Below are positions 43,924 through 59,325 of a stretch of DNA of 64,000 bases, piece after piece. The notes beneath the pieces were generated by a model. It searched no databases. It saw nothing but the letters and a program-made list of their open reading frames with translations, and had not been told where the DNA came from. The translations under genes and the position numbers were made by a program. The stretch is from Paludisphaera soli (GTDB lineage: Bacteria > Planctomycetota > Planctomycetia > Isosphaerales > Isosphaeraceae), in NCBI RefSeq assembly GCF_011064595.1, contig NZ_JAALJI010000032.1, forward strand, positions 1 through 64,000. Direction: 5' to 3'. How positions within the stretch are numbered: the stretch's first letter is position 1; each line of letters begins with the position of its first letter.

Positions 43924-44093
43924 GGCGTCGTCCTCGTCAAGGTTCGGTCGATGGATGCTCAGGCCAGCCCGGCGCGACGCCTCACTCTACCACCTGCAGC
44001 AATTGTTGAACAACGCTTTCAGGGATCCCGTCGAACCGAGCCCGGCGGGAAACTTGCGCGGCCTCACCGGAGGTTGGACGGACGGCTCCCGCG

Positions 44094-44195
44094 ATTGGGT
44101 TCGTTCGAGCGAAGCCAAATTGGCTTCGCTTGGCTTAAGGTGTTTAGGATCATAGGTTTGCATGGAAATTCATGGCTGGAAATTGGGTTCGTTCG
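44094..44195. repeat. 14-bp direct repeat with a palindrome between
   Basis: ATTGGGTTCGTTCG occurs at 44094-44107 and 44182-44195, 88 bases apart. Between them AGCGAAGCCAA (44109-44119) and its complement (44121-44131) form an 11-bp hairpin with a single central base. This lies in the 424-base gap 43924-44347, which otherwise has no supported gene. The pattern looks like a dispersed repeat family of the genome. Confidence 0.7.
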
Positions 44196-44347
44196 GCGCG
44201 CGTCGTCATGATTTTCTCGCGTGGTCACAGCCGGAAACACGCCGCGTGGCAGGCTCGGCGCAGGGTGGTCCCTCTTATCCACCATGCCACCGTTTCGCAG
44301 GATAGGGATGCGGCCGGAGCCGATCCCGGGCGATGGCCCGACGAACC

Positions 44348-45019
44348 CTAATTCCCCAGCAGCCGGCGGCAGGTCCGGGCGAGCAGGTCGGCGAAGCTCT
44401 CGCGGAAGACCTCCACCGTGAACGACCGGGCGATGCACTCGAACGTCGAGTCGTGGAACCAGAAGACGTAATGGTTGCTATCTCGCCAGCTCTCCGGGTC
44501 GTACAGCGAATGGACGCGGTTGATCGCCTCCAGCTCCGCCAGCCACCTGGAACTCACGACCCGCTGGGCCCTGTACGCATCCAGCCCCCGGCCGTGCAGG
44601 GGGTGGCCGTGGGCGACCTCGTCGTTGGGGTCGCCGAACCGGGTCGCGGTGACGCCGAAGAACTGGACGAGGGCCAGGGCTTCAATCGTCTCGTCGCCGG
44701 TGTCGACGATCCGGACGAAGGTCCCGTCCCAGTCCGTATCCTGCTCGTTGATGCGGAAGATCAGGAGCGTCTTGCGGTCGCTCTGGAGGAGGTGCGGGGC
44801 CGGGGCGCCGATGTCCCAGAGGACCGGGAAGTCGATCGGGACGGCGTGCTCCTCCCCCTTCGCCGCGGCCAACTCGCGTTCGAGCTGAAGGACGACGTCG
44901 GAGGCGGCCCAGAACTCCTCCCAGGTCCGTCCTCCCTTCGCCGGGTCCATGCCCCGGTAGACGGCCTGCTCCTCCTCGCGGGCGGCGGCCAGGCGGCGTT
45001 CGATCGCATCGACGTCCAT
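44348..45019 (-). CDS. Hypothetical protein, 223 aa
   Basis: ATG at 45019 with GAGGAG ten bases upstream; the frame runs to 45511 but only this part is supported. N-terminus MDVDAIERRLAAAREEEQA is a coiled helix. The centre (DFPVLWDIGAPAPHLL, TLLIFRINEQDTDWDG) and end (HYVFWFHDSTFECIARSF) look like a soluble alpha/beta protein. No family recognised. It is 17 bases after the amidohydrolase at 45037 and the last gene of that operon. Confidence 0.65.
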   Translation of the reverse strand: MDVDAIERRLAAAREEEQAVYRGMDPAKGGRTWEEFWAASDVVLQLERELAAAKGEEHAVPIDFPVLWDIGAPAPHLLQSDRKTLLIFRINEQDTDWDGTFVRIVDTGDETIEALALVQFFGVTATRFGDPNDEVAHGHPLHGRGLDAYRAQRVVSSRWLAELEAINRVHSLYDPESWRDSNHYVFWFHDSTFECIARSFTVEVFRESFADLLARTCRRLLGN

Positions 45020-45036
45020 GCTCGTCGGCTCCTCGA

Positions 45037-45813
45037 TCAGCCCAGGCCGAGCCAGGCGGCGGCGTTGCCCCAGGCGATCCGCCGCCTGTCCGCCTCGTCG
45101 ACGCGCAGGGTTTCCAGCTTCAGGAGCGACGGGTCGGGGTAGTGGAAGGGCATGCCGGTGCCGAAGGCCAGGCGGTCGGCCCCCAGGCCGGCGACGAGGC
45201 GGCCGATCTCGTCGGTCAGGACCGAGTCCATCCGCGAGATCTCGATCAGGTAGTTCGCCGGCAAGCCGGAGTCCTTCCGCCCCAGCGGCCCGTTCGCGTA
45301 GCCGGCCCCGTTCAGGAGCAGGAACCGCGCGTCGGGGCGGGCGGCGACGAGCGCGGCGACCTCGGCGAGCGGGACCTCGGGGACGTCGATCAGCCAGCTC
45401 CGGTTGCGGACGTCCTCGACCCGCATCGGGATCGAAATCGGCATCCCCATCTCGGTCGCCGCGTCGACCAGCTCCAGGCAGGCCGGGTCGGTCAGGGCGT
45501 AGCGGTGCCACTTCGGATAAAGCCGGAGGCCGCGAAACCCCAACTGGCGGCAGGCTTCCAGGTCGTCGCGCCAGCCGGCGTAGGCGGGGTTGACGACGGC
45601 AAAGGGGATCAGGCGATCGGCCCGACCCCGGACCTCGGCCGCGAGTTCCTCGTTCCCCGCCTGGGCGTTGCGGTAGGTGATGGCGGCCGCGCTGGAGACG
45701 ACCGCGCGGTCGATCCCCTTCGCGTCCATCAGGGCGACGAGCGACGGGCCGGTGTTGTTCCGGAGCGGGCGGAAGGCGAAGGGGCCGAGGTAGGCGTTGA
45801 CGTCGAGGATCAT
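45037..45813 (-). CDS. Amidohydrolase family protein, 258 aa
   Basis: Starts MILDVNAYLGPFAFRPL, a metal-dependent amidohydrolase barrel in which DVNAYLG takes the place of the usual DxHxH strand end, so the first metal pair may be degenerate. LYPKWHRYALTDPACLELV and FLLLNGAGYANG follow. The end GADRLAFGTGMPFHYPDPSLL is the late family segment. Its ATG overlaps the TGA of the upstream amidohydrolase (ATGA), so the two are translationally coupled. Confidence 0.75.
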   Translation of the reverse strand: MILDVNAYLGPFAFRPLRNNTGPSLVALMDAKGIDRAVVSSAAAITYRNAQAGNEELAAEVRGRADRLIPFAVVNPAYAGWRDDLEACRQLGFRGLRLYPKWHRYALTDPACLELVDAATEMGMPISIPMRVEDVRNRSWLIDVPEVPLAEVAALVAARPDARFLLLNGAGYANGPLGRKDSGLPANYLIEISRMDSVLTDEIGRLVAGLGADRLAFGTGMPFHYPDPSLLKLETLRVDEADRRRIAWGNAAAWLGLG

Positions 45814-46709
45814 CGCACCCGCCCCGCGAGGAGCCTCGCCATGTTGCCGCCGAGGATTTGGGCCTTCGCGTCGTCGGGCAGGTCGGCGCCCCGGATCCGG
45901 CCGACGCCGTGGGTCATCGACATGTCGCAGCCGAACAGCAGGCGGTCGACGCCCAGGACCTTGGCGGCCATCTCGATCACGGCGTCGTCGAGGACGCTGC
46001 CGCTGGTGTCGAGGTAGACCGACGGGGCGTGCCGCAGCGCCTTGATCGTCCACTCCCAGTCGCCGCCGCCGCAGACGTGGGCGCAGATCAGCCTGGCCTT
46101 GGGATACCGCGCCGCCAGCTCGGCGATCCGGCCGCCGTCGGAGATCCGGGGCTGATCGGCGAGCGGGTAGTGGATCCGCCCGGCGTGGTGGAGCACCGGC
46201 ACCCCCAGCTCGATCGCCGCCTCGATGATCGGGAAGACGACGGGGTCGGTGCAGAAGTATTCATTATAGAGTTTGACACCGATGAACCCGTATCCGAGCA
46301 CGCAGCGCCGGACCTCGTCGACGGCCTCGGCGCCGCACCCGGGGTTGACGTAGGCGTAGCCCAAGACCCGCCCGGGGAACCGCTTCGCCCCCTCGGCCGT
46401 CCAGCGGTTGCACTCGCGGAAGCCTTCGGCCGTCGCCGGCCGCTTCGGCGTCAGCATCGAGCAGCAGAGCACGTCGATCCCCAGCCGATCGGCCGCGTCG
46501 ATCAGCGCCGCGTCGTCGGCCCCCCACGAGGGTCGGCTCCGATGATGCAGGTGCGCGTGGCAGTCGATGACCTTCGGCTTCGCCGGGGCTTCCTCCGTAG
46601 TATGGGCCGCGACGACGTGCCTGCCGGTCGCGGCGCCGAGGGCGGCCAGGGCCGTCGAGCGTCTCAGGAACGAGCGCCGGGAGGCCGGCTCGCGCGGCGG
46701 TTCGGTCAC
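45810..46709 (-). CDS. Amidohydrolase family protein, Tat-exported, 299 aa
   Basis: GTG at 46709 has GGAGGGC seven bases upstream. A Tat signal (RRSFLRRST near residue 14) is followed by KVIDCHAHLHHRSRPSWG, where the His pair ligates metal, and by IKLYNEYFC-type strand ends (about 150), LICAHVCGGG with another metal histidine, and LFGCDMSMTHG near the end. It resembles the 258-residue amidohydrolase downstream and probably arose by duplication. Substrate unknown; the pair suggests related substrates in different compartments. Confidence 0.8.
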   Translation of the reverse strand: MTEPPREPASRRSFLRRSTALAALGAATGRHVVAAHTTEEAPAKPKVIDCHAHLHHRSRPSWGADDAALIDAADRLGIDVLCCSMLTPKRPATAEGFRECNRWTAEGAKRFPGRVLGYAYVNPGCGAEAVDEVRRCVLGYGFIGVKLYNEYFCTDPVVFPIIEAAIELGVPVLHHAGRIHYPLADQPRISDGGRIAELAARYPKARLICAHVCGGGDWEWTIKALRHAPSVYLDTSGSVLDDAVIEMAAKVLGVDRLLFGCDMSMTHGVGRIRGADLPDDAKAQILGGNMARLLAGRVR

Positions 46710-46840
46710 GTCATCGCCCTCCGGCGGGTGATGAAGAGGGCCCATCGTTCGAGCTGATGACCGGGCGCCGCAGAGATCGTATGCTGGATTTCATGGTCGA
46801 GATTGTAGGGCCGTAACGGCGATCAGTCGAGGTGCCCCAT

Positions 46841-47506
46841 ATGTCGGATCTGATGACCGAGATTCGGCGGTTCCGCGACTGGGCCGGCGACGATCCTCCC
46901 GCGACCCGGTCGCAGGAGGGCCTGCTCGTTCACGCCGACGGGGAGTGGGAGAGCGATTATCCCCACTGGACGGATCTATACGCCGCCGTCATGGAGCACA
47001 TGTCCGCGCGCCCACGCGAAAGGTGGTCGGCCGAGGAGTTGCAGGCCGTCCTGTACGCACTGGCTCGCGACAACGAGGACGAGCATCTGGTCTGGGAGAT
47101 CCGAGCCCATCACCCGGCGACCCTCATTGCGTTGGCGTCCGCGGTCCTTGCCGGAGGCGAGTTCGACGCCAGGTGGCAACTCGCCGATCAACTCGGCTTT
47201 CTCGACCGCGACGCGGGCGATGTCGAACGCCTTCTGCTGGATTTTGCCCGCGATGAGGACGAGTACATCCGGCGTCGCGCGATCAAATCCCTGGCTCGCC
47301 TCGGGTGTCCGGCGGCCGAACATCTGGCCCTGGAGGCCTGGCATCGGCCGCATGAGAATCAACAATGGGCGAGAATGGTGGCCCTGGATTGTCTCCGGCG
47401 GATCGGCTCTCCTCACCTGGAGCCTCTGCTGGCCGAGGCCGAGCGGGACGAACGTCCCCACCTCCGGGACTTCGCGGCGCGAATGCGTCAGAGACGTGTC
47501 GAGTGA
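46841..47506 (+). CDS. HEAT-repeat-like protein, 221 aa
   Basis: Helical throughout. The segment from about 105 to 215 reads as HEAT repeats (FDARWQLADQLGFLD, DEYIRRRAIKSLARLG, QQWARMVALDCLRRIGSPHL). The N-terminal third contains WAGDDPPATRSQEGLLVHA and is specific. No signal peptide. ATG at 46841 with GAGG about eight bases upstream; GTG at 46832 is an alternative. Similar proteins are seen beside toxin-immunity genes, but nothing here proves that. Confidence 0.65.
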   Translation: MSDLMTEIRRFRDWAGDDPPATRSQEGLLVHADGEWESDYPHWTDLYAAVMEHMSARPRERWSAEELQAVLYALARDNEDEHLVWEIRAHHPATLIALASAVLAGGEFDARWQLADQLGFLDRDAGDVERLLLDFARDEDEYIRRRAIKSLARLGCPAAEHLALEAWHRPHENQQWARMVALDCLRRIGSPHLEPLLAEAERDERPHLRDFAARMRQRRVE

Positions 47507-47670
47507 CGGTCGCTCGCCGGATCCACCGGCGAGCCCGGACGACGTCGCCCGCCCGGCGTCGTGGCGGCTCCGGCGTGACGAAAGGACGCGGATCGACCAC
47601 CGGCACGCAGCCGCCGGGACATTGCCGCCGCGGTACCCGGGGGCGGATGCGAATTGGAGCGGAGGAGCCG

Positions 47671-48105
47671 ATGATTCGCGAGATCGTCACCCGGCCGGTC
47701 ACGGCCCCTCAATTGGCGGAGGAACTGTCGTTTCTGGTGCACCACCTCCGGGGGCTCGGCTACGAGTCCTGCTTCGCCGCATTCGGCGGGGCGTGGGCGA
47801 TCGACTATTACTCGGACGGGACGACCGGCGACGGAGCGGTGCCGATCGACACCCTGCCCGGCGAGGTCTTCCGGGCCGCCGCGGCGGGCTGGGGAGGGCT
47901 CGGGGCGAACGACCTGTTCATCTCCATCCCGCCGTTGCCCTTGCAATTCCGCTTCTGCAACGACTCGGACCTCCACCTCGCGTTCGAGCCGCCGTGCGAC
48001 CTGGCCGACTTCTTTCGCAGGCGTTGGGAAGCGTTGGGCTATGGTCCCGCGGAATCCGAAGGGGGCGATCCGCGGATGCTGGGATGGGTTCCGCGGCCCG
48101 ACTGA
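47671..48105 (+). CDS. Hypothetical protein, 144 aa
   Basis: ATG at 47671 with GGAGGAG five bases upstream. Starts MIREIVTRPVTAPQLAEELS, has SCFAAFGGAWAIDYYSDGTT and PPLPLQFRFCNDSDLHL in the middle. Soluble, no signal. No family recognised. It follows the HEAT-repeat gene by 164 bases on the same strand. Confidence 0.6.
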   Translation: MIREIVTRPVTAPQLAEELSFLVHHLRGLGYESCFAAFGGAWAIDYYSDGTTGDGAVPIDTLPGEVFRAAAAGWGGLGANDLFISIPPLPLQFRFCNDSDLHLAFEPPCDLADFFRRRWEALGYGPAESEGGDPRMLGWVPRPD

Positions 48106-48190
48106 CCACTTGGGTACGCGAAACAGCACAGCCGGCGTGGTATGGCAGCTTAGCGGTCGCTTCATTCTATCAACGGGAGGTTATGACAGC

Positions 48191-49501
48191 ATGAGTCGCC
48201 ATTTCTCGAACGGCGGCCCGGGGCCCTCGCGACGCGCCGTGCTGGGGGCGGCGGCCGTGGCCCTGGCGGCGGGGAGGCGGGGCGATGCCGGGACGTTGGC
48301 CCTGGAAGGCGGCTCCCCGGCCGTCACGCTCGCGAAGGCGGCGCACGCCGAGGCCTCCCGTTGGCCGCTGTATGGGTCGGACGAGGAGGCGGCGGTCCTG
48401 GAGGTGCTGCGGAACCCGGGCTACGGGCCGATCGACGACCTGGAGCGCGACTGGCGGGAGCGGTTCGGGGCGCCGTTCGCCAAGGCCCATTGCAACGGCA
48501 CTTCGGCCATCGCGGCGATGTTCTTCGCGCTGGGGCTCCCCCCCGGATCCGAGGTGATGGTCCCCAGCTACACGTTCTTCGCCTCGATCGTGCCGATGCG
48601 GCTGTTCGGGCTGGTGCCGGTCTTCGTCGACGTCGACCCGCGCACGCTCAACTTCGACGTGGCCGACGCCCGCCGCCGCCTCACGCCGAATGTGAAGGCG
48701 ATCCTGCCGGTGCACTGGATGGGCCTCCCCTGCCCCATGGACGACCTCTCGGCGTTCGCCCAGGAGAAGGGCCTGATCCTGCTGGAGGACGTCGCCCACG
48801 CCCCCGGCGCGTCGTATCGCGGCAAACCCCTGGGCGCGTGGGGACGGATGTCGATCTTCAGCTATCAGACCACCAAGCCCCTGCCGGCCCTCGAAGGGGG
48901 GATGGGGATGTATCAGGAGCGCGCCGACTACGAGCGTGCGACGGCCTTCGGCCACTCCGACGTCCCCGCGCGGTTCCCGGCCGACAGCCGCTACAGGCGC
49001 TACGCCGGCACCGGCCTGGGGCTGAAGCTCCGCATGAACCCGATGGCCGCCGCGCTCGCCCGCGCGCAGCTCGGCAAGCTCGACGCCCGCAACGCCGCCG
49101 GCGCGGCGCAGGTCCGCCGGCTCAACGACCGGATCACGCAGCTCCCCGGCCTGGTCGAGCCCCCCTGCCCGGCCGACGCGACGAGGATCTACTACGCGAA
49201 CAACATCCTATTTCTCGACGAAGCGACGGCCGGCGCGACCCGAGCCGCCGTGGTCGCGGCGCTCCGCGCCGAAGGGGTCCAGGCGCGCGAGCACCGCTAT
49301 CCGCTCCAGCACAAGCTCCCGCTCTACGCCGAGCCCGAGTGGTGGCACCACCCGCCGACGATCCCCGAGCTCCCCGGCTCCGACGAGGCCAACCGCACCG
49401 CGATCGCCCTCCCCTACTTCACCTCCGAGGCGCCCGAGCTGATCGAGCAATACACGCGGGCTTTCGAGAAGGTGTGGGCGAATCGCGCGAAGCTGTCGTG
49501 A
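48191..49501 (+). CDS. DegT/DnrJ/EryC1/StrS family PLP-dependent aminotransferase, with Tat-like signal
   Basis: 436 residues. RRAVLGAAAVALAAG near 14 looks like a Tat or secretion signal, unusual for this family but frequent in Planctomycetes. The aminotransferase domain has GPIDDLERDWRERFGAPFA, HCNGTSAIAAMFFALGLPPG, VMVPSYTFFASIVPMRL, and FSYQTTKPLPALEGGMG with the PLP lysine in TTKPL. C-terminal domain with YYANNILFLDE. The family acts on nucleotide-linked sugars or cyclitols. GGGAGG is 12 bases upstream of the ATG at 48191. Confidence 0.85.
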   Translation: MSRHFSNGGPGPSRRAVLGAAAVALAAGRRGDAGTLALEGGSPAVTLAKAAHAEASRWPLYGSDEEAAVLEVLRNPGYGPIDDLERDWRERFGAPFAKAHCNGTSAIAAMFFALGLPPGSEVMVPSYTFFASIVPMRLFGLVPVFVDVDPRTLNFDVADARRRLTPNVKAILPVHWMGLPCPMDDLSAFAQEKGLILLEDVAHAPGASYRGKPLGAWGRMSIFSYQTTKPLPALEGGMGMYQERADYERATAFGHSDVPARFPADSRYRRYAGTGLGLKLRMNPMAAALARAQLGKLDARNAAGAAQVRRLNDRITQLPGLVEPPCPADATRIYYANNILFLDEATAGATRAAVVAALRAEGVQAREHRYPLQHKLPLYAEPEWWHHPPTIPELPGSDEANRTAIALPYFTSEAPELIEQYTRAFEKVWANRAKLS

Positions 49502-49610
49502 GGGCGGCCCCGGCCCCGGCTTGCGGCGGGGATGCGGCGGGGGCATCATGGCACCCGGGATTTCGTGCAATTCCTCGAATCGAATCGAGACGACCGGGAG
49601 GCGATTTTTG

Positions 49611-50012
49611 ATGAAACTGCTGTACGTCGCGTCGCTGATGCTCGCCGGGGCCGCCCTGGCCTATCCGGCGTTCGCGTTCTCGGGCAAGGCCGAGGGCCAG
49701 CCCCTGGCCCACATGGTCTTCTTCACGCTCAAGGACCACTCGCCGGAGGCGGTCGACGCCTTCGTGGCCGACTGCGAGAAGTACCTGACGAAGCACGAGG
49801 GGACGCTCTACTTCTCGATCGGCAAGCGCGCCGAGGACGTCGAGGAGCCGCCCAGCGTGAAGGATTTCGACGTGGCCCTGCACGTCGTGTTCGCCGGCAA
49901 GGAGTACCGCGACAAGTACCTCGCCAGCAAGCGTCACGACGACTTCGTCGCGACGATCAAGTCCCGGATGGAGAAGGCCCGGGTCTTCGATTCCTACCTG
50001 CCCAAGCCCTGA
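49611..50012 (+). CDS. Dabb (stress-response A/B barrel) domain protein, secreted
   Basis: 133 residues. A signal peptide (about 1-22, ending AYPAFAFSG) precedes one Dabb domain with LAHMVFFTLKDHSPEAV, GTLYFSIGKRAED and the late HDDFVATIKSRMEKA. ATG at 49611 with GGGAGG ten bases upstream. Dabb domains dimerise; function unknown. Confidence 0.8.
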   Translation: MKLLYVASLMLAGAALAYPAFAFSGKAEGQPLAHMVFFTLKDHSPEAVDAFVADCEKYLTKHEGTLYFSIGKRAEDVEEPPSVKDFDVALHVVFAGKEYRDKYLASKRHDDFVATIKSRMEKARVFDSYLPKP

Positions 50013-50074
50013 CGACGAGAGGTCGAAGGGGGGAGGCCTCCGTGCCCCCCCCGGACCCGTCCCAACCCTCGCAC

Positions 50075-50485
50075 TCAGATCGTCCAGTCGGGCGTCTTGC
50101 CCTGCGCGGCGAGGTGGGCGATCGTCGTGCGGTTCAGGATTTCCACCTGGGAGGCCTGGATCCGCTCCCACAGCTCCGCGAGGGCGCCGAAGGAGGATTG
50201 GCGCTGGGGGCGCTCCTGGAAGTCCTCGCCGTCGACGACGCGGAGCACGTCCCCGAGCGAGATCGTCAAGGGGTCGCGGGCCAGGCGATAGCCGCCCGAC
50301 GAGCCCCGCGTGCTGACGACCAGGCCCGCCCCCTTGAGGCGGATCAGGATCTGGGTCAGGAACGTCTCGGGGATGTCGTGGGCCTCGGCGATCTCCCGGA
50401 TCGGCACCGGCCGCTCGCCGTCGTGGCGGTCGGCCAGCGCGATCACCGCCAGGCACGCGTACTCCGCCTTGGCCGAGATCTTCAC
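50075..50485 (-). CDS. Rrf2 family transcriptional regulator without cysteine cluster
   Basis: 136 residues. Family start MKISAKAEYACLAVIALA, winged helix with IREIAEAHDIPETFLTQILI and GGYRLARDPLTISLGDVLRV. The region where iron-sulfur types carry three cysteines has none, so it is probably not a cluster-binding sensor. C-terminus ends PDWTI, as in the second Rrf2 protein of the window (ADWTI). Confidence 0.9.
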   Translation of the reverse strand: MKISAKAEYACLAVIALADRHDGERPVPIREIAEAHDIPETFLTQILIRLKGAGLVVSTRGSSGGYRLARDPLTISLGDVLRVVDGEDFQERPQRQSSFGALAELWERIQASQVEILNRTTIAHLAAQGKTPDWTI

Positions 50486-50531
50486 GATCCCTCCCCTCCC
50501 GGAATCCTTCCGTCCGCGTCCCCCGATCCCG

Positions 50532-50756
50532 TCAGTTCCAACAGGGTTCCATCATCTTCTGGAACCGCGAGGGCTCCCGCGCGGCCAGGGCCTGCTGATA
50601 GGCCAGGCGATAGATCGCCGCCCAGGGCCCGGACACCACGAAGCCGCCCGAAGCCGTCGGGAAGAAGGCCGCCGCGGTCGGCTCCGAGGCCGACGACGTC
50701 GCCGAAGAAGAGACCGAAACCTTTGAGGAACCAACCGGCCAGGTGATTCGAGACAT
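50532..50756 (-). CDS. Small protein, 74 aa, planctomycete type
   Basis: Starts MSRITWPVGSSKVSVSSS. A Ser/Ala-rich first half is followed by WAAIYRLAYQQALAAREPSR, the segment shared by a set of short planctomycete proteins of unknown role. No signal. The ribosome site is weak (AGGTTAAGCAGAG). A 281-base intergenic region lies upstream. Confidence 0.5.
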   Translation of the reverse strand: MSRITWPVGSSKVSVSSSATSSASEPTAAAFFPTASGGFVVSGPWAAIYRLAYQQALAAREPSRFQKMMEPCWN

Positions 50757-51037
50757 CTCTGCTTAACCTCTCAGGAGGGAGCTCGATCGTTCAGACAGGG
50801 GTATCATTACCTTTCCTATCGTCGAGGTCAAGAAGAATCTTGAGTATCCCGACAAGGATTGTCCGAGCCGGGCCCTTCGATACCTGCCTTACCCGGTCAG
50901 CTTGATCTGAATGGTCACGATACATAAAAATTCTTTGATGGAATTTGCTTGCGGACGGGGGGCCGATCCGGTACTAAGTTGAGGAGTCGGGGCGGAGCAC
51001 GCCCCCGGTCCCAGGAACTTCCGGCGAGGACGGCGCG

Positions 51038-51505
51038 ATGAACGGTTCGATGATGATGGTGGAGCGGAACGCGATGGGCATGAACGCGGGCATGGGCATG
51101 GGTGCCATGACCGGCGGCGCGACGATGCCGGCGGCCTCGCAGATGATGATGGTCCCCCGCTGCACGGTCCTGTTGGAGAAGTGCGAAGGCGGGATGAAGA
51201 TGACCTGCAAGGCCGACGACAAGATGTCGGCGAGCATGATGCAGAACCTCTGCAACATGATGGCCGGCGGGATGTGCAGCTGCTGCATGATGATGAACGG
51301 CATGACCATGTGCTGCTGCAACATGGCGATGGCCATGTGCAAGTGCGAGATGACCGACGACGGCGTCTGCATCACCTGCACCAGCGGCGACGCCGAGTGC
51401 TGCAAGATGATCCAGGCCTGCTGCGACTGCATGACGGCCATGATGAAGTCCGGCTGCGTCTGCTGCGTCTGCATGAACGGCATGCCCGTCTGCTGCTCCT
51501 GCTGA
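51038..51505 (+). CDS. Met/Cys-rich protein, 155 aa, probable metal binder
   Basis: 26 cysteines and 36 methionines among 155 residues (40 percent), with no Phe, Trp, Tyr or His. Cysteines come in CC, CCC, CxC and CxxC groups from about residue 42 to the end; Met runs cover the whole chain. A repeated unit MNGM followed by a Cys group occurs at about 87-94 and 147-153. No signal peptide, so cytosolic. Composition suits Cu(I) or other soft-metal binding, like a metallothionein, but no known family is evident. ATG at 51038 with GAGGA seven bases upstream. A strong hairpin follows. Two Rrf2 regulators lie within 2 kb. Confidence 0.75.
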   Translation: MNGSMMMVERNAMGMNAGMGMGAMTGGATMPAASQMMMVPRCTVLLEKCEGGMKMTCKADDKMSASMMQNLCNMMAGGMCSCCMMMNGMTMCCCNMAMAMCKCEMTDDGVCITCTSGDAECCKMIQACCDCMTAMMKSGCVCCVCMNGMPVCCSC

Positions 51506-51540
51506 GCGGGACGCCCGCCGACCGCCTTCGACACGCGGAC

Positions 51541-51583
51541 GAGGCCGCCGCGACGTCCCTTCGGGATGCGTCGCGGCGGCCTC
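51541..51583. terminator. Hairpin between the Met/Cys-rich gene and the PEP-CTERM gene
   Basis: A perfect 15-bp stem, GAGGCCGCCGCGACG at 51541-51555 and its complement at 51569-51583, with a 13-base loop. It lies between convergent genes and could serve both. Confidence 0.8.
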
Positions 51584-51610
51584 GCGTCCGTTCCGGGCCG
51601 TGGGATCGGT

Positions 51611-52432
51611 TCAGCGCCGGGATCGGGCCCGGGCGAGGAGCATGGCGGGGAGGGCCGCCGCGAGCTGGGCTAGGCTCGACGGCTCGGGGATAGCCGGCGC
51701 GGCGATCGACCCTTCGAGGACCTCGGGCGTCCCCGACTCGAGGCCCGCGACAGTGTAGGCCGAGGAGCTCGGGCCGAGCCGGCTGCAGAACGCGAAGAGG
51801 CCCGAGGCCCCGGGCGCGATCGGCGCGTCGGGCTCGTCGGCGAAGAACGAGATCGAGGGGTCGCCGGCGGCGTACTCGACGAACCAGCCGTCGGGGGCGA
51901 CGACGTCCTGGAGGTCCGCCCCCCCGCCCACCACCAGGCCGAGGAAGATCGCCGGTGCCGTGCTCCCCGCCGGCCGTTCGCCGACGAGCTGGGCCCCAGG
52001 CCGATCGGGTCGGCCGGGTCGTGGATCGGATACGGCCCCGAGTTCGCCAGGTTGTCGAACGTGATCGAGCGCACGCGGTTCGCCCCCGAGGCCCCGATCG
52101 GCAGCATCGGCGAACGACCCCGCCAGACGTCGTCGGCGTAGCCGTAGTCGGCCCCCGCGGCGGCGGCGAAGAGCTGGCTGGATCGGCGACGAGAGCTTGC
52201 CCGTGAGGAAGTTGTAGCGGTAGCTGACGATCCCGGCGTCGTGGCACATCACATACAGGCGGGCCAGCGGCCCCCAGGCCATCTGCGTGGGCCCCCCGGC
52301 CGTCGCCCCCAGCGCCTTCTGGAACGACAGCGAGGCCCTGTAAGGAGCCTCGACGGTGGGCTGGGCCCAGCCGACGGGAGGCCCCGCCAGGCCGACGACC
52401 AGGGCCAGGACGAAACCCGCCTTCCGAATAAT
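51611..52432 (-). pseudogene. PEP-CTERM sorted protein, two compensating frameshifts
   Basis: The N-terminal part has a signal (RKAGFVLALVVGLAGPPVGWA) and the C-terminus ends with IPEPSSLAQL, a hydrophobic run and ARSRR, the PEP-CTERM sorting tail. Near 52174-52182 the frame changes (a base too many in AGCCAGC), and near 51991-52000 it changes back (a base missing in a GGGGCCC run), so about 180 bases are read in another frame; the sense in that frame (for example ITFDNLANSGPYPI) is good. No ATG/GTG/TTG start is in frame; ATT at 52432 is used here. Either a sequence error or a decayed gene. Confidence 0.65.
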
Positions 52433-52610
52433 GGCAATCCCTGCGTCGATCCGCGTCGCGCCCTCCGTTCCGGACGTTCGCCATGGATCATGGCCGCTCG
52501 ACGAAGGGCGATTATGAACGGATCCGTCGCAATGTCCTGGGCTGCCGTCCCAAACGTCGCCGAAAAGCCTCGGTTTGGTTTTATGGCGATGAATCGGGCT
52601 GGATGTCGCT

Positions 52611-53060
52611 TTAAATTGTCCAGTCGGCGACGTAAAGGAAGCCTAAGTCTTGGTTTTCCTTGATGAGGTCGGCGAACGTGGTGTTGTCGACGACGTCGGC
52701 GATGGCCTGGCGGACGCGGCCCCAGAAGCCGAAGAAAGGGCAGTGGCCGGGGTACTCGCAGGTCTTGGGGCGGGTCTGGCTGACGCAGTCGACCGGGGCG
52801 ACGGGGCCGTCGATGAACCGGATCACCTGGCCGATGGCCAGCTCCTCGGGGGGCTTGGCGAGCAGGTAGCCCCCCTCGGCCCCGCGCCGGCTGTTGACGA
52901 ACCCGCCCCCCTTGAGCTGGCTGAGGATCGCCTCCAGGAACTTGATCGGGATGTGCTGCTTCTCGGCGATCTCGTTGGCCTTCATCGGGGCCGTGCCCTG
53001 GTACTCGGCGAGGGCGTAGATCGCCCGCAACGCATAATAACACTTGGCCGAGACGGTCAT
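52611..53060 (-). CDS. Rrf2 family regulator with three cysteines (Fe-S type)
   Basis: 149 residues. Rrf2 start MTVSAKCYYALRAIYALA, winged helix with NEIAEKQHIPIKFLEAILSQ and GGYLLAKPPEELAIGQVI. Cysteines at 92, 101 and 107 (C-X8-C-X5-C) lie where IscR and NsrR bind an iron-sulfur cluster, though the first spacing is longer than in IscR. It may sense iron, nitric oxide or redox state. Ends ADWTI. Confidence 0.9.
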   Translation of the reverse strand: MTVSAKCYYALRAIYALAEYQGTAPMKANEIAEKQHIPIKFLEAILSQLKGGGFVNSRRGAEGGYLLAKPPEELAIGQVIRFIDGPVAPVDCVSQTRPKTCEYPGHCPFFGFWGRVRQAIADVVDNTTFADLIKENQDLGFLYVADWTI

Positions 53061-53147
53061 TCGATCACTCGTTGATGTGCGTGTTCCGCCCGCGACGGCC
53101 CGCCTTCCGGGCCGCGCGTCGACTCCCCCGACCTCCGGCCCTCCATT

Positions 53148-53971
53148 CTACTCGACCCCCGGGCCGCCGAGAATCCCCCGATCCGGGTCGGGATCGTCGA
53201 CATTCCGCGACGGCGGGCCCCCGAGCGCCGCGTGCTCCCACGAGGCGTCGACGACGGCGTGGAGATACGCGAGCGGTTCGGGCGTCCTCGCGCCGATCCA
53301 GAGGGAGCAGTGTCCGCCGTCCCGCTCCTCCTCGAACGGCAGGGCGAACGCGACGGCTCCGCCGCCGAACCAGAGCCGGCCGGGATGATCCGGACTCTGC
53401 CAGGCCGCGAAGGGAAGCGGACGCAACGGAGCGGTCGCGCGGCGGACCAGGTCTGGCCCCGCCCAGGCCCTGGCGGCCCCGTACGTCGCGCCCAGGGCGG
53501 CCTCGAACAGGCAAGCGGCGAGGAGGAACTGTGAGAGGGTCCCGCCCCTCGTCCACGGCTCGTCCCGCTCGCACCGCCCCCAGACGGGCGGGTCCTCCCC
53601 CGCCTCGGCCGTGGCCCAGACGTATACCCCTGGTTCTCGACGTAGAACACGAGCCGGCCGTCTTCGTCGAGGAACAGGTCCTCCAGGTTCGGGAGCCGAT
53701 TCTGGCCATCCAGGACGCCCCGGCGCAGCCCCCCGGCCCGATACCAGGCTCTCAGCGGGCCGGGCCGTTCATGGCCTCGGAGCCGATCCTCCGGATATCC
53801 GTCCCCCGGCCGATTCCGGCCGTGCCAGAGGGCGATGAACGCGTCGAGAGCGGCCATCCGATCGGCGACGCCCGTCTCGCCCCCGACCCCGGCCAGGAGC
53901 CGGTCGACCTCGTCCCAGGACGGCCCCCACGCCCCCCCGCCCGAGTCGCCTCCCGAACACTCGCCCATCAA
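53148..53971 (-). pseudogene. Hypothetical protein with one frameshift
   Basis: The N-terminal part in one frame (MMGECSGGDSGGGAWGPS at 53971, then LFLDEDGRLVFYVENQG) and the C-terminal part in another (VYVWATAEAGEDPPVWGRC through ILGGPGVE, ending at 53148) join near 53626-53630, where a G/C run is one base short. Read through, it is about 274 residues with no signal. The segment DGRLVFYVENQGVYVWAT is like SUKH/Smi1-type proteins, but that is a guess. Sequence error or real break are both possible. Confidence 0.65.
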
Positions 53972-54019
53972 GCGACCTCCAACCCGACGGAAACGGGGCT
54001 TCGACCCCGACGACAGACC

Positions 54020-54049
54020 TTGCGTCGGCTCCCGCGCGTGTCGTACACT
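54020..54049 (+). promoter_or_regulatory. Possible promoter of tRNA-Ser
   Basis: TTGCGT (54020-54025), 18 bases, TACACT (54044-54049), 99 bases before the tRNA. The region between has no gene. Confidence 0.4.
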
Positions 54050-54148
54050 TGGGCCCCAAGCCGACCCGTCCGCGATCGAAAGGCCCCTCCACCAGGGGCT
54101 TTACAGGAGCCCGGGCCGCAAGTAGATTGTCCTGCGCGATTTACAAAC

Positions 54149-54236
54149 GGAGAGGTGACCGAGAGGCCGAAGGTGCGGCACTGGAAATGCCGTGTACGCT
54201 AACCCCGTACCGAGGGTTCGAATCCCTCCCTCTCCG
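54149..54236 (+). tRNA. tRNA-Ser, anticodon GGA
   Basis: 88 bases. Acceptor GGAGAGG pairs with CCTCTCC at the 3' end, discriminator G at 54236, no encoded CCA. Anticodon loop CTGGAAA gives anticodon GGA, reading UCC/UCU. Long variable arm of a class II tRNA. T-arm GGGTTCGAATCCC. Followed by a small terminator and by an integrase gene. Confidence 0.92.
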
Positions 54237-54271
54237 CTTTAAATACGGTCAACTAAGGGTTTGCGTCCGAG

Positions 54272-54289
54272 AGGGCTCAAGCCCTTTTT
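54272..54289 (+). terminator. Terminator of tRNA-Ser
   Basis: AGGGC (54272-54276), loop TCAA, GCCCT (54281-54285), followed by TTTT to 54289. It lies 35 bases behind the tRNA. Confidence 0.75.
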
Positions 54290-54296
54290 CTTGCGC

Positions 54297-54400
54297 CTGT
54301 TAACCCTCCGTACCGTTCACCCTACCTCTGGTTAACAGATTCTTGCACCCCGCGACGCCGCCTCGATACGATCCGAGGGGCGGCATCGAACGGTTAACAG
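54297..54400. repeat. Three copies of GGTTAACAG between tRNA and integrase
   Basis: GGTTAACAG at 54330-54338 and 54392-54400, and its inverse CTGTTAACC at 54297-54305. The motif is AT-rich against the local base composition and placed as integrase arm sites would be. A second copy of the tRNA 3' end (the other att site) was not seen in the window. Confidence 0.5.
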
Positions 54401-54416
54401 GTGCGGGGCTCTTCTC

Positions 54417-55758
54417 ATAGCACGCAAGCTCGAGATGACCGGGCAGGCGTCCACGCGTCGCTGGTTCAAGAAGCACGGCGGGAAGATGAACACGGTCTCC
54501 TGCAAGCGGCTCGGGACGCCCGAGACCAAGGAGGCCAGCGGGGCCGCCGCCAACGCCTGGTGGGCCGCCAAGCTCAAGGAGGTCGAGGCCGCTCCCCCGT
54601 CCGAGGCCGACCGACGGGCGAATGCCCTGAAGGTCTGGTCGATGGTCCGGGACTGGTCGCACCTCGACGAGCCGAGCAGCGAGAAGCTGGTCGACTCGCT
54701 CGTCGGCGAGGGCCGTTACCGCGAGATCAAGGCCCAGGCCGGGGCGATGGTCGAGGCGGCCTCGAAGCCCACGCCCGCCGATCGCACGGTCGCGGCCCAG
54801 GTCGAGGCGTGGGAGGGGCTGCTCCGCTCGGCCTGCCGGGCCGGGCAGATGTCGGAGGGCCGGTAGACGCCCATCGCCGCCGGATCAGGCCCTTCGCGGA
54901 ATGGATCGGCCCCGATTCGCCCGTCGACTCGATCGACGAGGCGAAGCTCGAGGGGTATTTCAACCGCCTGTCGGCGCTGGTGTCCGAAGGCCGCTACTCG
55001 CCGGCATCGGCCCACGAGCTCCTGACGACGGCGAAGCAGTTCCTCACCCGGCTCGCGTCCCTCAGGCTGATCACCCTGCCGGGGAACATCCGCGACCGGA
55101 GGTTCCGGTTCAACCACTCCGTGGCGTCCCGGATCGAGACCTTCACGGTCGCCGAGGTGAGGGCCGCGCTCGCGGCGGCGAACGACCGGACGCGGCTCTT
55201 CATCCTGCTCTGCATCAACTGCGGCATGTACCAGAACGACATCGCCGAGCTGCGTCCCGACGAGGTGGACTGGAAGGCCGGCGTCGTGACCCGCAGGCGG
55301 AGCAAGACCCGCGAGCGCGGGGGCCAGGTCGTCTCCTACAAACTCTGGCCGGAGACGTTCGCCCTGCTGAAGAAACTGCGGGCCCACGGCGACCTGGCCC
55401 TCGAGACCGACGAGGGCAACCCGCTGGCCAAGGAATGGATCGAGGACGGCAGGTATCGGAAGTACGACGCCGTGCGATCGGCCTGGAGCCGGCTGGCCGT
55501 CAAGATGGGGATGAAGAAGGGCCGCCTGGGGTGAAGCACCTGCGCAAGACCTCGGCCTCGATGCTGGGGGCGCATCCCCAGTACAAGTTCTACACCACCC
55601 ACTTCCTGGCCGACTCACCCAGGGGCATGCCCCTGAAGCACTACGTGATCCCCGACGACGTCGAGTTCTTCGAGGCGCTCGCGTGGCTGCGGGGGCGGCT
55701 GCTGGGCCCGGAAGGCGGCGAGGCGGCCACGCAGTCCCTCCTCGGCCAGCAAGCATAG
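54417..55758 (+). pseudogene. Tyrosine recombinase/integrase, broken by frameshifts
   Basis: N-terminal part (ARKLEMTGQASTRRWFKKHG from about 54417, where ATA stands for a likely ATG) ends at a stop at 54866. A second frame then continues with RPFAEWIGPDSPV, the core-binding domain, and the catalytic domain (LFILLCINCGMYQNDIAELR) to a stop at 55534. A third frame gives KHLRKTSASMLG with the HxxR box and HYVIPDD with the tyrosine, ending at 55758. Joins are near 54855 and in the GGGG run near 55528-55532. It adjoins tRNA-Ser, a common integration site. As read it is inactive; sequence error is possible. Confidence 0.75.
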
Positions 55759-55833
55759 GACGAGCCGGGCCACGTCCTCGGACGTCAGGTCGAGGTAGGG
55801 TTCGAGCGGATCGGCCGGCTCAAGGCGATTCAT
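55615..55833 (-). CDS. Hypothetical small protein, 72 aa (doubtful)
   Basis: ATG at 55833; starts MNRLEPADPLEPYLDLTSED. The first half (VARLVLCLLAEEGLRGRL) is plausible protein, but the second half overlaps the integrase C-terminus on the other strand. No domain recognised. It may be a remnant of the integrated element. Confidence 0.3.
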   Translation of the reverse strand: MNRLEPADPLEPYLDLTSEDVARLVLCLLAEEGLRGRLAAFRAQQPPPQPRERLEELDVVGDHVVLQGHAPG

Positions 55834-57117
55834 CGTCCATCCTTCTGGTCCCGGTCGCTCGCCGCTCGACGGTCGGACGCCCCCCTGGAGCGTCTGCGGA
55901 TCGCCGCCCGGCAGCCTCGAAATCCGTCGGGGCGACCCCCGATCACTTGCAAGTCCACCGTTCGATGTTCCGGCGGAGGCCCCCGCCGATCCGCCGATGC
56001 GGATCATCGGCCGCAAGTCTCGCCGCCGAGGACCGCGATCGGCTCCACGATTCGCCCATCTCCCGTCCGCCCTCGCGACTCGCGGAAGCCATGGACCCAT
56101 TTATCCGCGGCGACCCGGCGGCGCACCAAGAGCAATCCCGGCCCGCCAGCCCGAGTGACCGAAAGCGTGGATCGACGTCCCGAACGGCGACCATCGACGC
56201 TCTCCCAGGCGAGCTCAGACGCCGAGGCCGCGAGCACTCGCCGCATCCAAGACGTCCGGGGTCCGCCGAGGCAGGTCGGCGACGTTTGGGCGGGCGACGG
56301 GGCTTCCACGACAGGGGAAGCCGCTTGAACCACGACGAGCCCCGGGATTTCACCGCGCCGCCCGGCCCTATGATGGGAGTCGCTCCGTCGACCTGGGGAT
56401 GGACGGGCTCCTGGTCGCGTGCCGAGCGTCATTGAATCCCGTCATTCAGGGCCGCCCCCTCGTCGATCCTCGGAGAGCCGATCTCCGGCCGCGTCCGCCG
56501 CCATCGGGCGCTCTCCGATCCTAGAGCTCCGATCGGGACGGCTCCCTCGGACTTTTGACGCCGGGATGGCGAGGGCGTCACGACCCTCGAGGCTCTGCAA
56601 GTTCCACTTCGGGATATCCACCCGGCCCACCGCCACCGGTCGGGCAAACGTCGTGAGGTCTTGGGCGTCGCCCCGGTCCAACGGCACCCGAGTCATGCCA
56701 ACCCCGAGCATCCTCCGCCGCGACCTACACCCAGAACCTGCCGATCGGGCACCGCTCGCGGGCCATGCGGCCCTTCGCCTTGGTGGAGCAGCCGCAGATC
56801 CGGCGGCTTAGGTCCGCGTGGTGCTCGTAGGCCCGGCACGTCGCCGAGCGGAACCACCGGACGTCGGCCGGTATCATCTTCAGGCGTGAGTTGGCCAGGT
56901 CGGCCATCGCCCATGTCGCCGAGGACGCCATCCGGAACCGGCCGGGGGTCTGGAGAAGACTTAGAGACGTGCGACTTACACGTCGCGGTCGGAGGCTTCG
57001 AGAATCGAAGAATCGCGTTCAAATCCTTGACGAGGCGGACAAATCCGGATCGACCTATCGGCTGCGGGAGGTTTATGTTAGGGCCTGAAAAAGTCCTCAC
57101 GTCCGTTGGAACGACGC
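55834..57117. other. 1.28-kb stretch with few supported genes
   Basis: Behind the integrase remnant no long, well-formed gene is seen on either strand. The best candidate is listed at 56725-56931. The minus-strand frame 56442-56711 has a plausible first half (MTRVPLDRGDAQDLTTFARP) but no ribosome site. The remainder reads as G/C-rich shadow frames. It could be decayed cargo of the element next to the tRNA. Confidence 0.4.
56725..56931 (-). CDS. Small Cys-containing protein, 68 aa (possible mobile-element cargo)
   Basis: Starts MASSATWAMADLANSRLKMI. FRSATCRAYEHHADLSRRIC followed by GC and RCPIGRFWV forms a Cys/His-rich group like a zinc knuckle of short proteins in planctomycete integrated elements. 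No signal peptide, weak ribosome site. Overlapping frames on both strands exist. Confidence 0.35.
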   Translation of the reverse strand: MASSATWAMADLANSRLKMIPADVRWFRSATCRAYEHHADLSRRICGCSTKAKGRMARERCPIGRFWV

Positions 57118-59325
57118 ATGAATCATCGATCGGGGGGCCTCGGGGCCGCAGTACGCATGCTTCGAGGCCCAGCGAAGGCGGGCGACGTGGCGCTGGCGGC
57201 GGTCGTGGGGCTGGCCGGGGTCTTGGCGGTCCACCATCCGATGATCCTCTCCGGGTTCGGCCGGATTCAGACGGACCTGCGCGACACGCGGCTCCTGAAT
57301 TACTTCCTGGAGCACGGCTGGCTCTGGGTTACACAGGCCCGGCACCACGAGCGTTTCTGGGACTCGCCCTTCTTCCACCCCGTCCCGAACGTGACGGCCT
57401 ACTCCGATTCCATGCTCAGCTTCGGGCCGATCTACTGGCCCTTCCGCGCGACCGGCCTCGCGCCCGACGTGGCGTTCGGGGCCTGGATGGCGGCGACGAC
57501 GTCGCTGAACTACGCGGCGGGCCTCCTGCTGTTCCGAGGAGGCCTGGGCTTCGGCTGGCCGGCGGCCGCCGCGGCGGCCGGGTTGATCGCCTTCGGCTCG
57601 CCGCGGGTGAACCTGCTCCACCATCCCCAGCTCCTGCCGTGCTTCTATCTCCTCTTCGCCCTCTACGCGCTCTGCCGGGTCGCCAGGGACCACGCCGCCG
57701 GCGCCGCCGAGCGGGCCTCCTGGTGGACGGCGTTCGGGCTCGCGGTCGCGGCCCAGTTCTACGGCGGCTATTACCTGGCCTGGTTCTTCTGCGTCGGGCT
57801 GGCGGTCGCGGCCGTCGCGGCGCTGCTTCTCGACGCGACACGGGCTCGGGTCGCGGCGTTGATTCTGCGCGACTGGTGGGCCGTCGCGCTGGGGGCCGCG
57901 GTCGCGGCGGTCGCGCTGGTCCCGTTCCTGGCCCACTACCTGCCGGTCGCCCGCGAGGTCGGTCAGGGCTTCAGCGAGATGCAGAGGCTCACCCAGCCGG
58001 TCTCCTGGTGTTGGTGGAACGTCGGCGAGATCAACTGGTTCTGGGGTTGGATCGACCGCGGCTGGCCGCTCGGGGCCTTGTACCCTGAGGAACTCCGGAT
58101 GGGCCTCGGGTTCGCGACGACCGCCGCCTGCTGGCTGGGCGTCTACCTGAGCCGACGCCGTCCCCTGGGGCGTCTGGCCCTCGTCGTGGCGATCTTCGGC
58201 GTGACGGCCATGACGTTCCGCCTGGATTACATCGCCGCGGCGACGGCCTGCTTCGCGCTGGCCGTCCTGTTCCGCGAGCCGGAATGGACCCGTCGCGAGG
58301 TGGTCCCGATCGCCTTGGCGACGGCGGCCCTGCTCGCCGCCCCGGCCGGGGACGACGTCGCCTTGTCGCTTTCGTTCGCGATGATGGCCCTCTGCGTCCA
58401 CCGCCTCTGGCGTCGTCGGCGGACGGACGGCCTGGCGGTGCCGGGTGCGGTGCTGGCGGCGCTCGCCTGGCATTCGCTGCCGACGGACCTGGCCGCGTTG
58501 ATGGCCGTCTTCTTCGCGACGGCCGGGGCCCTGGCGGCCTACCTGGCCCCGGGCCGCAGGATCGAGGCCGCCCTCGGGGCCGTCGGCCTCTGGCTCGCCG
58601 CCACGGCCTGGCTCTCGGTCGAGAGGGCTCATTGGATATTCCACCTGGCGGCGCTGGGGGCGGCCTTCGGCTGGTCGGCCTCCGGGGGTCGACGACCTCG
58701 GCCCGGCCCCGTCGCGGCCGGGATTCTGCTGGGAGCCTCGCTGCTGATCGTGGTCTTCGGCGACGGCGCCGATTCGCCCTGGCTCGCGGCCTCGCCTTTC
58801 ATCCCGGGCTCCGGGGCCGTGCGCATGCCTTCCCGCGTGATCCTCATCTTCCTCGTACCGGCGGCCCTCGGGCTGGCGTTCCTGGTCGAGCGGCTCCACC
58901 GCGCGGGCCGGGGAGCGGCGGCCTGGGGCCTGGCGCTGATCTGCCTGCTGGAGCAGACGGGTACCTCCCTGACCTACGACCGCGACGAGGGCCGGCGACG
59001 GGTCGCGGAGATCGCCCGCCGGGTGGACCGCGACGCCGGGGCGTTCTACTACCAGCGCTCGCCGGGCGACGACTACTACAGCGTCCACATCGACGCGATG
59101 TGGGCGTCGGTGGGGTCCGGCGTCCCGACGATCAACGGCATATCCGGATGCTTCCCGACCGACTGGTGGGAACTGAGCGACGCCGGAGCTCCCGGACGGC
59201 GGGCGATCGAGGAGGCCTTGGGGATATGGTGCGACCGGCACGGCTTGCGACGCGTCGACGTCCAGTTGATCGGTAGCCGGGCGAACCAGGCCGCGTCAAC
59301 ATCCGACGCGCCGCCGGATCCCTGA
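57118..59325 (+). CDS. Large multi-pass membrane protein, GT-C/YfhO-like, 735 aa
   Basis: About 15 predicted helices. The start segment (DVALAAVVGLAGVLAVHHP near 23-41) is followed by an extracytoplasmic loop with HERFWDSPFFHPVPNV, typical of membrane glycosyltransferases and YfhO-like proteins, then many Ala/Leu helices. The C-terminal 110 residues are a soluble domain with YDRDEGRRRVAEIARRV and INGISGCFPTDWWE. It could transfer sugars from lipid carriers to cell-surface material; no catalytic Asp can be fixed. ATG at 57118; a TTG at 57106 is an alternative. Confidence 0.75.
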   Translation: MNHRSGGLGAAVRMLRGPAKAGDVALAAVVGLAGVLAVHHPMILSGFGRIQTDLRDTRLLNYFLEHGWLWVTQARHHERFWDSPFFHPVPNVTAYSDSMLSFGPIYWPFRATGLAPDVAFGAWMAATTSLNYAAGLLLFRGGLGFGWPAAAAAAGLIAFGSPRVNLLHHPQLLPCFYLLFALYALCRVARDHAAGAAERASWWTAFGLAVAAQFYGGYYLAWFFCVGLAVAAVAALLLDATRARVAALILRDWWAVALGAAVAAVALVPFLAHYLPVAREVGQGFSEMQRLTQPVSWCWWNVGEINWFWGWIDRGWPLGALYPEELRMGLGFATTAACWLGVYLSRRRPLGRLALVVAIFGVTAMTFRLDYIAAATACFALAVLFREPEWTRREVVPIALATAALLAAPAGDDVALSLSFAMMALCVHRLWRRRRTDGLAVPGAVLAALAWHSLPTDLAALMAVFFATAGALAAYLAPGRRIEAALGAVGLWLAATAWLSVERAHWIFHLAALGAAFGWSASGGRRPRPGPVAAGILLGASLLIVVFGDGADSPWLAASPFIPGSGAVRMPSRVILIFLVPAALGLAFLVERLHRAGRGAAAWGLALICLLEQTGTSLTYDRDEGRRRVAEIARRVDRDAGAFYYQRSPGDDYYSVHIDAMWASVGSGVPTINGISGCFPTDWWELSDAGAPGRRAIEEALGIWCDRHGLRRVDVQLIGSRANQAASTSDAPPDP

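Follow-up and report, generated by a model that had tools for sequence, protein, structure and literature searches.

A cysteine- and methionine-rich protein family of planctomycetes with a constant small partner and linked Rrf2 regulators: a possible reserve of sulfur amino acids

The window, i.e., the whole stretch of 64,000 nucleotides of Paludisphaera soli analysed here, carries a gene for a Met/Cys-rich protein, which is listed in Table 1 together with the features in and around it. The first-pass annotation had placed this gene between two Rrf2 regulator genes; both are present, but the gene for a 74-aa protein and a PEP-CTERM-like ORF also lie there. Translation bore out the composition given earlier, including the complete lack of Phe, Trp, Tyr, and His: Cys and Met together account for 40% of the residues, the Cys residues form 7 CC pairs and 7 CXC motifs, and only 3 of the 155 residues are prolines. 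When all frames of 100 aa or more in the window (339) were compared from stop to stop, the frame of this gene had a Cys+Met content of 35%, the runner-up 11%, and the median 2%. No hydrophobic leader was found with a simple hydropathy window, in keeping with the lack of a signal peptide claimed before. The claim of a strong terminator holds in part: the stop codon is followed by a hairpin of great stability (−65.8 kcal/mol, z −3.1), but it has no T run, and a terminator scan called none.

Table 1. Features of the Met/Cys locus, with positions in the window
Feature	Position	Strand	Remarks
Rrf2 regulator A	50075..50485	-	PF02082; no Cys in C-terminal half; C-terminus -DWTI
74-aa partner, last residue Asn	50532..50756	-	Profile search; predicted C-terminal helix, low confidence
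Operator-like palindrome CATCAAAG-NN-CTTTGATG	50923..50940		2 mismatches in window; sole such site in source genome at that threshold
Met/Cys-rich protein gene	51038..51505	+	155 aa, 26 Cys, 36 Met; family, 48 loci examined
N-terminal Met/Gly-rich tail, residues 1-34	51038..51139	+	pLDDT <50; length varies among relatives
First bb-a-bb repeat, residues 41-96	51158..51325	+	AlphaFold2, hhalign
Second bb-a-bb repeat, residues 97-155	51326..51502	+	AlphaFold2; homologous to first (hhalign)
Strong hairpin behind stop codon, without T run	51535..51593	+	Folding energy, terminator scan
Rrf2 regulator B	52611..53060	-	PF02082; C-X8-C-X5-C; C-terminus -DWTI

The ORF is more than a chance frame, since 16 of the 45 genomes of the same family (8 of 21 genera; protein search, source genome included) carry it, the other copies being 64–83% identical and stop-free. 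Its dN/dS values against nine relatives were 0.33–0.70, and the selective constraint deduced from the sequences is modest. A scan of a named genome collection gave 38 loci with the gene, whose hosts are Isosphaeraceae (Singulisphaera, Aquisphaera) and Gemmataceae (Gemmata, and Limnoglobus, which carries the gene twice). It also occurs in MAGs labelled Planctomyces, Rhodopirellula, and Phycisphaerales, as well as in two MAGs of Verrucomicrobia (locus L052, Opitutaceae; locus L056, Spartobacteria). Misbinning is possible for the last two loci because both come from MAGs, L056 lying on a 599-kb contig. The family is patchily distributed, since a profile search of 392 genomes of the phylum found 4 positive ones, the source genome among them. 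The homolog search and gene-order comparison proposed with the annotation brought up relatives in other Planctomycetota, with a nearby Rrf2 gene in half of the loci examined. The analyses below use 48 loci, namely, the window, the 38 named loci, and 9 fetched by place. At four of these loci (L030 and L057–L059) the gene runs off the end of its contig, which leaves 44 uncut members for the core statistics. Gene calls in the flanking DNA were made with a simple codon-bias script and are error-prone.

As the annotation had held, the protein matches no described family: searches of Pfam, NCBIfam, and PDB sequences brought up no relative. The best Pfam match of 42 members was to DUF2218 (E 0.15), metallothioneins and other described families remaining unmatched, and the best NCBIfam match of the members was to a pilus protein (E 0.076). 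PHROGs, queried with four proteins, gave no known family either, and a mobile or viral origin of the gene was set aside, there being no match in viral contigs or plasmids.

The family has a core of 115–119 aa in 40 and of 128–130 aa in 4 of the uncut members. Although the core holds anywhere from 17 to 34 Cys and from 3 to 35 Met, their sum is nearly constant (48, s.d. 5), and the two counts are anticorrelated (r −0.82 for the 44 members; −0.83 for the 27 less similar ones). Replacement of Met by Cys was in excess (42/195 vs 31/465, p 2e-7); that of Cys by Met was without significant excess (29/121 vs 89/465, p 0.25). The family alignment has 17 invariant columns, with invariant Cys columns among them, and His, which is absent from the window protein, is rare in its relatives.

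The core is predicted to consist of two repeats of the bb-a-bb type. The two halves are homologous: their hhalign score is 44.2, whereas 60 column shuffles reached no more than 11.5 and the reversed control 15.4. AlphaFold2 with 42 sequences gave pLDDT block means of 86–96 over residues 41–155 and a pTM of 0.69; the model has strands at 41–49, 52–58, 80–86, 89–95, 100–106, 109–115, 141–146, and 149–154, and helices at 62–74 and 119–137. The predicted structure is therefore a confident duplicated fold, unlike a loose metallothionein. Foldseek found no clear match to the model among PDB structures (best E 1.1) or viral models (best E 0.088), and the VIA matches, a poxvirus DNA polymerase complex with Z 6.0 across 83 residues and a KEOPS chain with Z 4.4, are weak and were not read as kinship. 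Lack of a match alone does not prove that the predicted fold is new.

The 74-aa partner was searched for with a profile from which the last residue had been removed, and it was found in 36 of the 48 loci at E ≤ 0.01, with 34 at 1e-7 or better. The two genes always lie on opposite strands, the partner being divergent and upstream of the Met/Cys gene in 31 loci and convergent and downstream in 5. Asn is the last residue in all 36 partners; 22 of these are profile seeds that had been picked with terminal Asn, and the remaining 14 had not. Of the 45 family genomes, 15 have the partner; these all belong to the 16 Met/Cys-positive ones, and the 29 negatives lack it (Fisher p 5e-11); in the sixteenth positive genome, a contig end cuts the gene. 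The partners share a conserved Y..A helix near the C-terminus, and the predicted structure shows a C-terminal helix only (pLDDT 65, pTM 0.31). No convincing Pfam or NCBIfam match was obtained for the partner (best E 0.0074, in one of 33 members), and the two genes apparently form a pair that, judged from sequence, is undescribed. By eye, about half of the 33 aligned partners have a central Cys-Pro, which the partner in the window lacks.

Both regulators of the window belong to the Rrf2 family, matching PF02082 (A, E 1.4e-30; B, E 1.5e-33; 106.6 and 116.2 bits against a cut-off of 30) and TIGR00738 (102.5 and 113.1 bits against 73.3), and B has the Cys spacing that the annotation gave, while A has no Cys in the corresponding C-terminal half. 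For both, the B. subtilis-type CymR structure 2y75 was the second-best PDB match (E 8.8e-20 and 1.7e-19). With 92.3 and 99.2 bits, they stay below the cut-off of 195 bits of the CymR equivalog NF047409; they may perhaps work in a CymR-like manner even though they are not classed as CymR. In 24 of the 48 loci, both Verrucomicrobia MAGs included, the Met/Cys gene has an Rrf2 gene within 3 kb, in differing positions and orientations, and 2 more loci have one farther away; none was found in 22 loci, where the flanking DNA is partly short. As the source genome has 5 Rrf2 genes in 8 Mb, the link to Rrf2 genes suggested earlier is real.

A further common feature of these regulators was found at the C-terminus. 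Each of the 33 Rrf2 proteins found there, 30 of them encoded no more than 3 kb from the Met/Cys gene, has Ile (29) or Leu (4) as its last residue; 12 of the 33 are related sequences from the genus of the window. The endings, such as DWTI, DWVI, DYVI, GDGI, and DFHI, resemble the tail of serine acetyltransferase (CysE). Both regulators in the window end in the Ile that characterizes the CysE-type tail of CymR-type regulators. The C-terminal Ile of CysE is reported to contribute about 80% of the energy of binding to CysK, and the same source lists CymR among the proteins with a CysE-like C-terminal motif (PMC12895370; see also PMC5562914 and PMC4961446).

As a control, 42 of 48 Rrf2 matches were read in ten genomes, five of which carry the Met/Cys gene. 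Of the 38 Rrf2 proteins that do not flank it, 16 are tailed and 22 are not, as against 33 tailed out of 33 in the Met/Cys loci (Fisher p 3e-8, for sequences that are related). Thus, the tail is not special to the module but marks a class of Rrf2 proteins. Near the tailed controls (44 ORFs from 15 of 16 loci, 4 being Rrf2), matches to ATP-sulfurylase (9), APS kinase (8), and PAPS reductase (7) were found, the first two perhaps partly in the same proteins. Near the tail-less ones (64 ORFs from 19 of 22 loci), NorB and globins are among the best 25 of 67 families, and these three sulfur enzymes are absent from those 25. The third tailed Rrf2 protein of the source genome (-HEWTI) adjoins PAPS reductase. 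The Ile tail is therefore a possible sequence mark of sulfur-sensing Rrf2 regulators in planctomycetes, and such a mark would be simple to use. Isosphaeraceae genomes in which Ile-tailed Rrf2 genes stand beside cysH-like and ATP-sulfurylase-like genes include L082, L107, and L114.

A palindrome in front of the Met/Cys gene is a candidate operator, which the Rrf2 regulators may bind. In five of the six genomes of the genus, it lies 92–146 bases before the chosen start, and in each of these five it occurs, at up to 2 mismatches, at this single place; the sixth genome has no site at this threshold. The backward pattern used as a control matched once in one genome and twice in another, so that chance matches do occur. 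Related versions precede the Met/Cys genes of L028, L051, and L068, and there is a hint of a common operator in Gemmataceae.

The neighboring genes were also examined for metabolic functions. CysK/CBS genes lie within about 2 kb of the Met/Cys gene in 10 of the 48 loci; with 8 such genes, strong and weak matches together, in 8 Mb, we estimate that chance would place one within 5 kb in about 1% of the cases. Three other loci (L022, L028, and L029) have a cysteine dioxygenase nearby, together with an FAD/NAD(P)-binding protein, which brings the loci with cysteine enzymes to 13; the other 35 have none of those sought, and the window itself has no CysK/CBS or gamma-lyase match in 44001–59000. The gene order is Rrf2, CBS, and cystathionine gamma-synthase/lyase in Aquisphaera insulae (L051; CBS match of 505.5 bits, cut-off 510.25) and in L068 of the same genus; Rrf2 and CysK in Gemmata (L048), in L044, L046, and L070, and in L052; and Rrf2, cysteine dioxygenase, and the FAD/NAD(P) protein in L029. 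A cystathionine-lyase-like frame that clustering had indicated in L047 was dropped, since the profile search found such enzymes in L051 and L068 only. When 131 neighbors were scanned against families, Rrf2 (17) came first, and PALP enzymes (7) equalled DDE_5 (7), among the best 25 of 103 families.

What we observed is thus the family with its duplicated predicted fold and its constant partner, the tails of the Rrf2 proteins, the sulfur genes that adjoin the module in relatives, and the palindrome. We consider it probable that the module has some part in cysteine homeostasis. For the Met/Cys protein itself, composition, including the trade-off between Cys and Met, and genetic context point, tentatively but as our leading choice, to a sink and reserve for Cys and Met that is controlled by sulfur status. 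In the mechanism that we propose, the CymR-type Rrf2 regulators would dock with the C-terminal Ile tail into cysteine synthase (CysK) and so read the O-acetylserine/cysteine state. The regulators would then switch the Met/Cys gene via the dedicated operator, in a direction that may be either induction or repression. The compact, presumably cytosolic protein would absorb surplus Cys and Met, and its proteolysis may return them under sulfur shortage, with the 74-aa partner possibly helping to fold, pack, load, or degrade it. This reading as a whole, in which a new Cys/Met protein of duplicated fold, an Asn-ended helper, and CysE-tail-mimicking Rrf2 regulators reading cysteine synthase form a bank of sulfur in planctomycetes and some Verrucomicrobia, is possible and is put forward with reserve. 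Several points speak against it: a metal-thiolate protein would equally be expected to show CC and CXC motifs together with 17 invariant columns, cysteine synthesis could be induced for making such a protein, and 4 of the 33 tails end in Leu rather than in the conserved Ile. To these come the lack of excess in Cys-to-Met replacement, the 22 loci in which no Rrf2 gene was found, the 35 loci, the window among them, without the cysteine enzymes sought, and the palindrome's absence from one genome of the genus and its chance matches in the backward control.

The first two points lead to the main rival, a metallothionein-like or copper-storage-like buffer of soft metals whose high need for Cys ties its expression to the cysteine supply. 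The first-pass annotation had made copper or another soft metal its choice and had suggested coupling through the Rrf2 genes. The 26 Cys, with their CC and CXC motifs, the Met/Gly tail, and the invariant Cys columns would suit such a buffer, as Cu(I) accepts both thiolate and thioether ligands, and metal homeostasis genes are changed in S. aureus cymR mutants (PMC2869319). Against this stand several results, and coupling to copper or metal state found no support. No metal-transport family is among the best 25 of the 103 families matched by the 131 neighbors, and the frames of the 48 loci contained no HMA motif and a single P-type ATPase motif, at a distance of 5.5 kb; His is missing or rare; and the wide ranges of Cys and Met within a core of near-constant length are loose for fixed metal sites. 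In addition, the tails of the linked Rrf2 proteins are CysE-like, and those loci that have a linked enzyme have one of cysteine metabolism. Because regulators and neighbors point to sulfur, the metal buffer was lowered from first choice; we regard it as unlikely, although the protein itself may bind metal. The sulfur reserve or sink is favored over it since relatives are often found beside cysteine-metabolism genes and sulfur-type regulators.

Comparison with known metal proteins gave similar contrasts. The Csp1 and Csp3 copper storage proteins likewise have many Cys; Csps are described as four-helix bundles, with Csp3 cytosolic (PMC5171941), whereas the Met/Cys protein is predicted to be a beta-rich bb-a-bb duplication with a Met-rich tail, and its model has no four-helix bundle lined with Cys. 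Metallothioneins of the SmtA/MymT type are Cys-rich with few aromatic residues. The Met/Cys protein differs from them in that it is much longer, has Met as frequent as Cys, is modelled as confidently folded, has no Pfam match, and is accompanied by regulators of the sulfur rather than the metal kind.

A second alternative is a thiol/thioether redox buffer or sulfane-sulfur carrier, likewise under sulfur-status control, that would absorb oxidants or reactive sulfur. The density of Cys and Met agrees with this, as do the dioxygenase and FAD/NAD(P)-binding proteins of the three loci mentioned above and a rhodanese near one tailed Rrf2 gene elsewhere; nevertheless, methionine sulfoxide reductase, peroxiredoxin, and SUF/ISC are all absent from the best 25 of 103 neighbor families, and we consider this role rather improbable. 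Still less probable, indeed very unlikely, is a disulfide-linked structural protein. Cys-rich YTV proteins are present in planctomycete cell walls (PMC8567305), but the Met/Cys protein has no hydrophobic leader of the kind expected from the export signal of YTV proteins and few prolines, its regulators are of the sulfur type, and it has relatives in Verrucomicrobia MAGs. That the ORF is an artefact, i.e., a shadow ORF or low-complexity frame without function, can practically be dismissed: spurious frames are common in high-GC DNA, a 186-aa frame lies opposite, and dN/dS is merely moderately low, but the stop-free frame is kept in 16 genomes with a core of near-constant length and a confidently predicted fold.

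Returning to the sulfur sink and reserve, the closest regulatory parallel is the CymR-CysK sensor of Bacillus and Staphylococcus, which shares with the module an Rrf2 regulator, a C-terminal Ile, and coupling to cysteine genes. The window regulators differ from CymR in the lower equivalog scores, in the three Cys of one of them, and in the link to a Met/Cys protein; none is known from CymR systems. The Met/Cys protein may be likened in concept to the sulfur-rich seed storage proteins (2S albumins, zeins), a Cys/Met-rich sulfur store (PMC3420316); no sequence relation was seen. Those are plant proteins and are not known to be under Rrf2 control. Among bacterial reserves, our searches of the open-access literature brought up no protein store of sulfur amino acids. 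Bacteria do store carbon, nitrogen, phosphate, and elemental sulfur. If the proposal is true, the module would be such a protein reserve with a sensor of its own, and the Met/Cys protein would play for sulfur the part that cyanophycin plays for nitrogen. Even if the protein binds metal, it would represent a folded family without known relatives and with a constant partner of an unmatched kind. What appears to be new is the family, its predicted fold, and its partner, each without a match; the function proposed for them is our reading of the sequences.

Several minor observations were made around the loci. The largest frame cluster (45 loci) turned out to be the antisense frame of the Met/Cys gene itself, and a frame named PEPb in the neighbor comparison was junk; both were set aside. 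In the window, the PEP-CTERM-like ORF at 51611–52282 (−), between the Met/Cys gene and Rrf2 gene B, has weak NCBIfam matches and relatives in L040, and a tyrosine-recombinase-like ORF at 54401–55534 (+) matches PF00589 at E 2e-4, below the cut-off. An ORF of about 220–280 aa is conserved directly downstream of the gene in L031, L033, L035, and L036, the copy in L036 having no NCBIfam match. Upstream, on the same strand, an IS701-like transposase-derived ORF, perhaps domesticated, is found in seven loci (L032, L034, L038, L041, L042, L043, and L048); the one copy scanned, that of L042, matches NF033540 at E 2.9e-73. In L064–L067, which belong to the genus of the window, Rrf2 gene B is no more than about 180 bases away from the Met/Cys gene.
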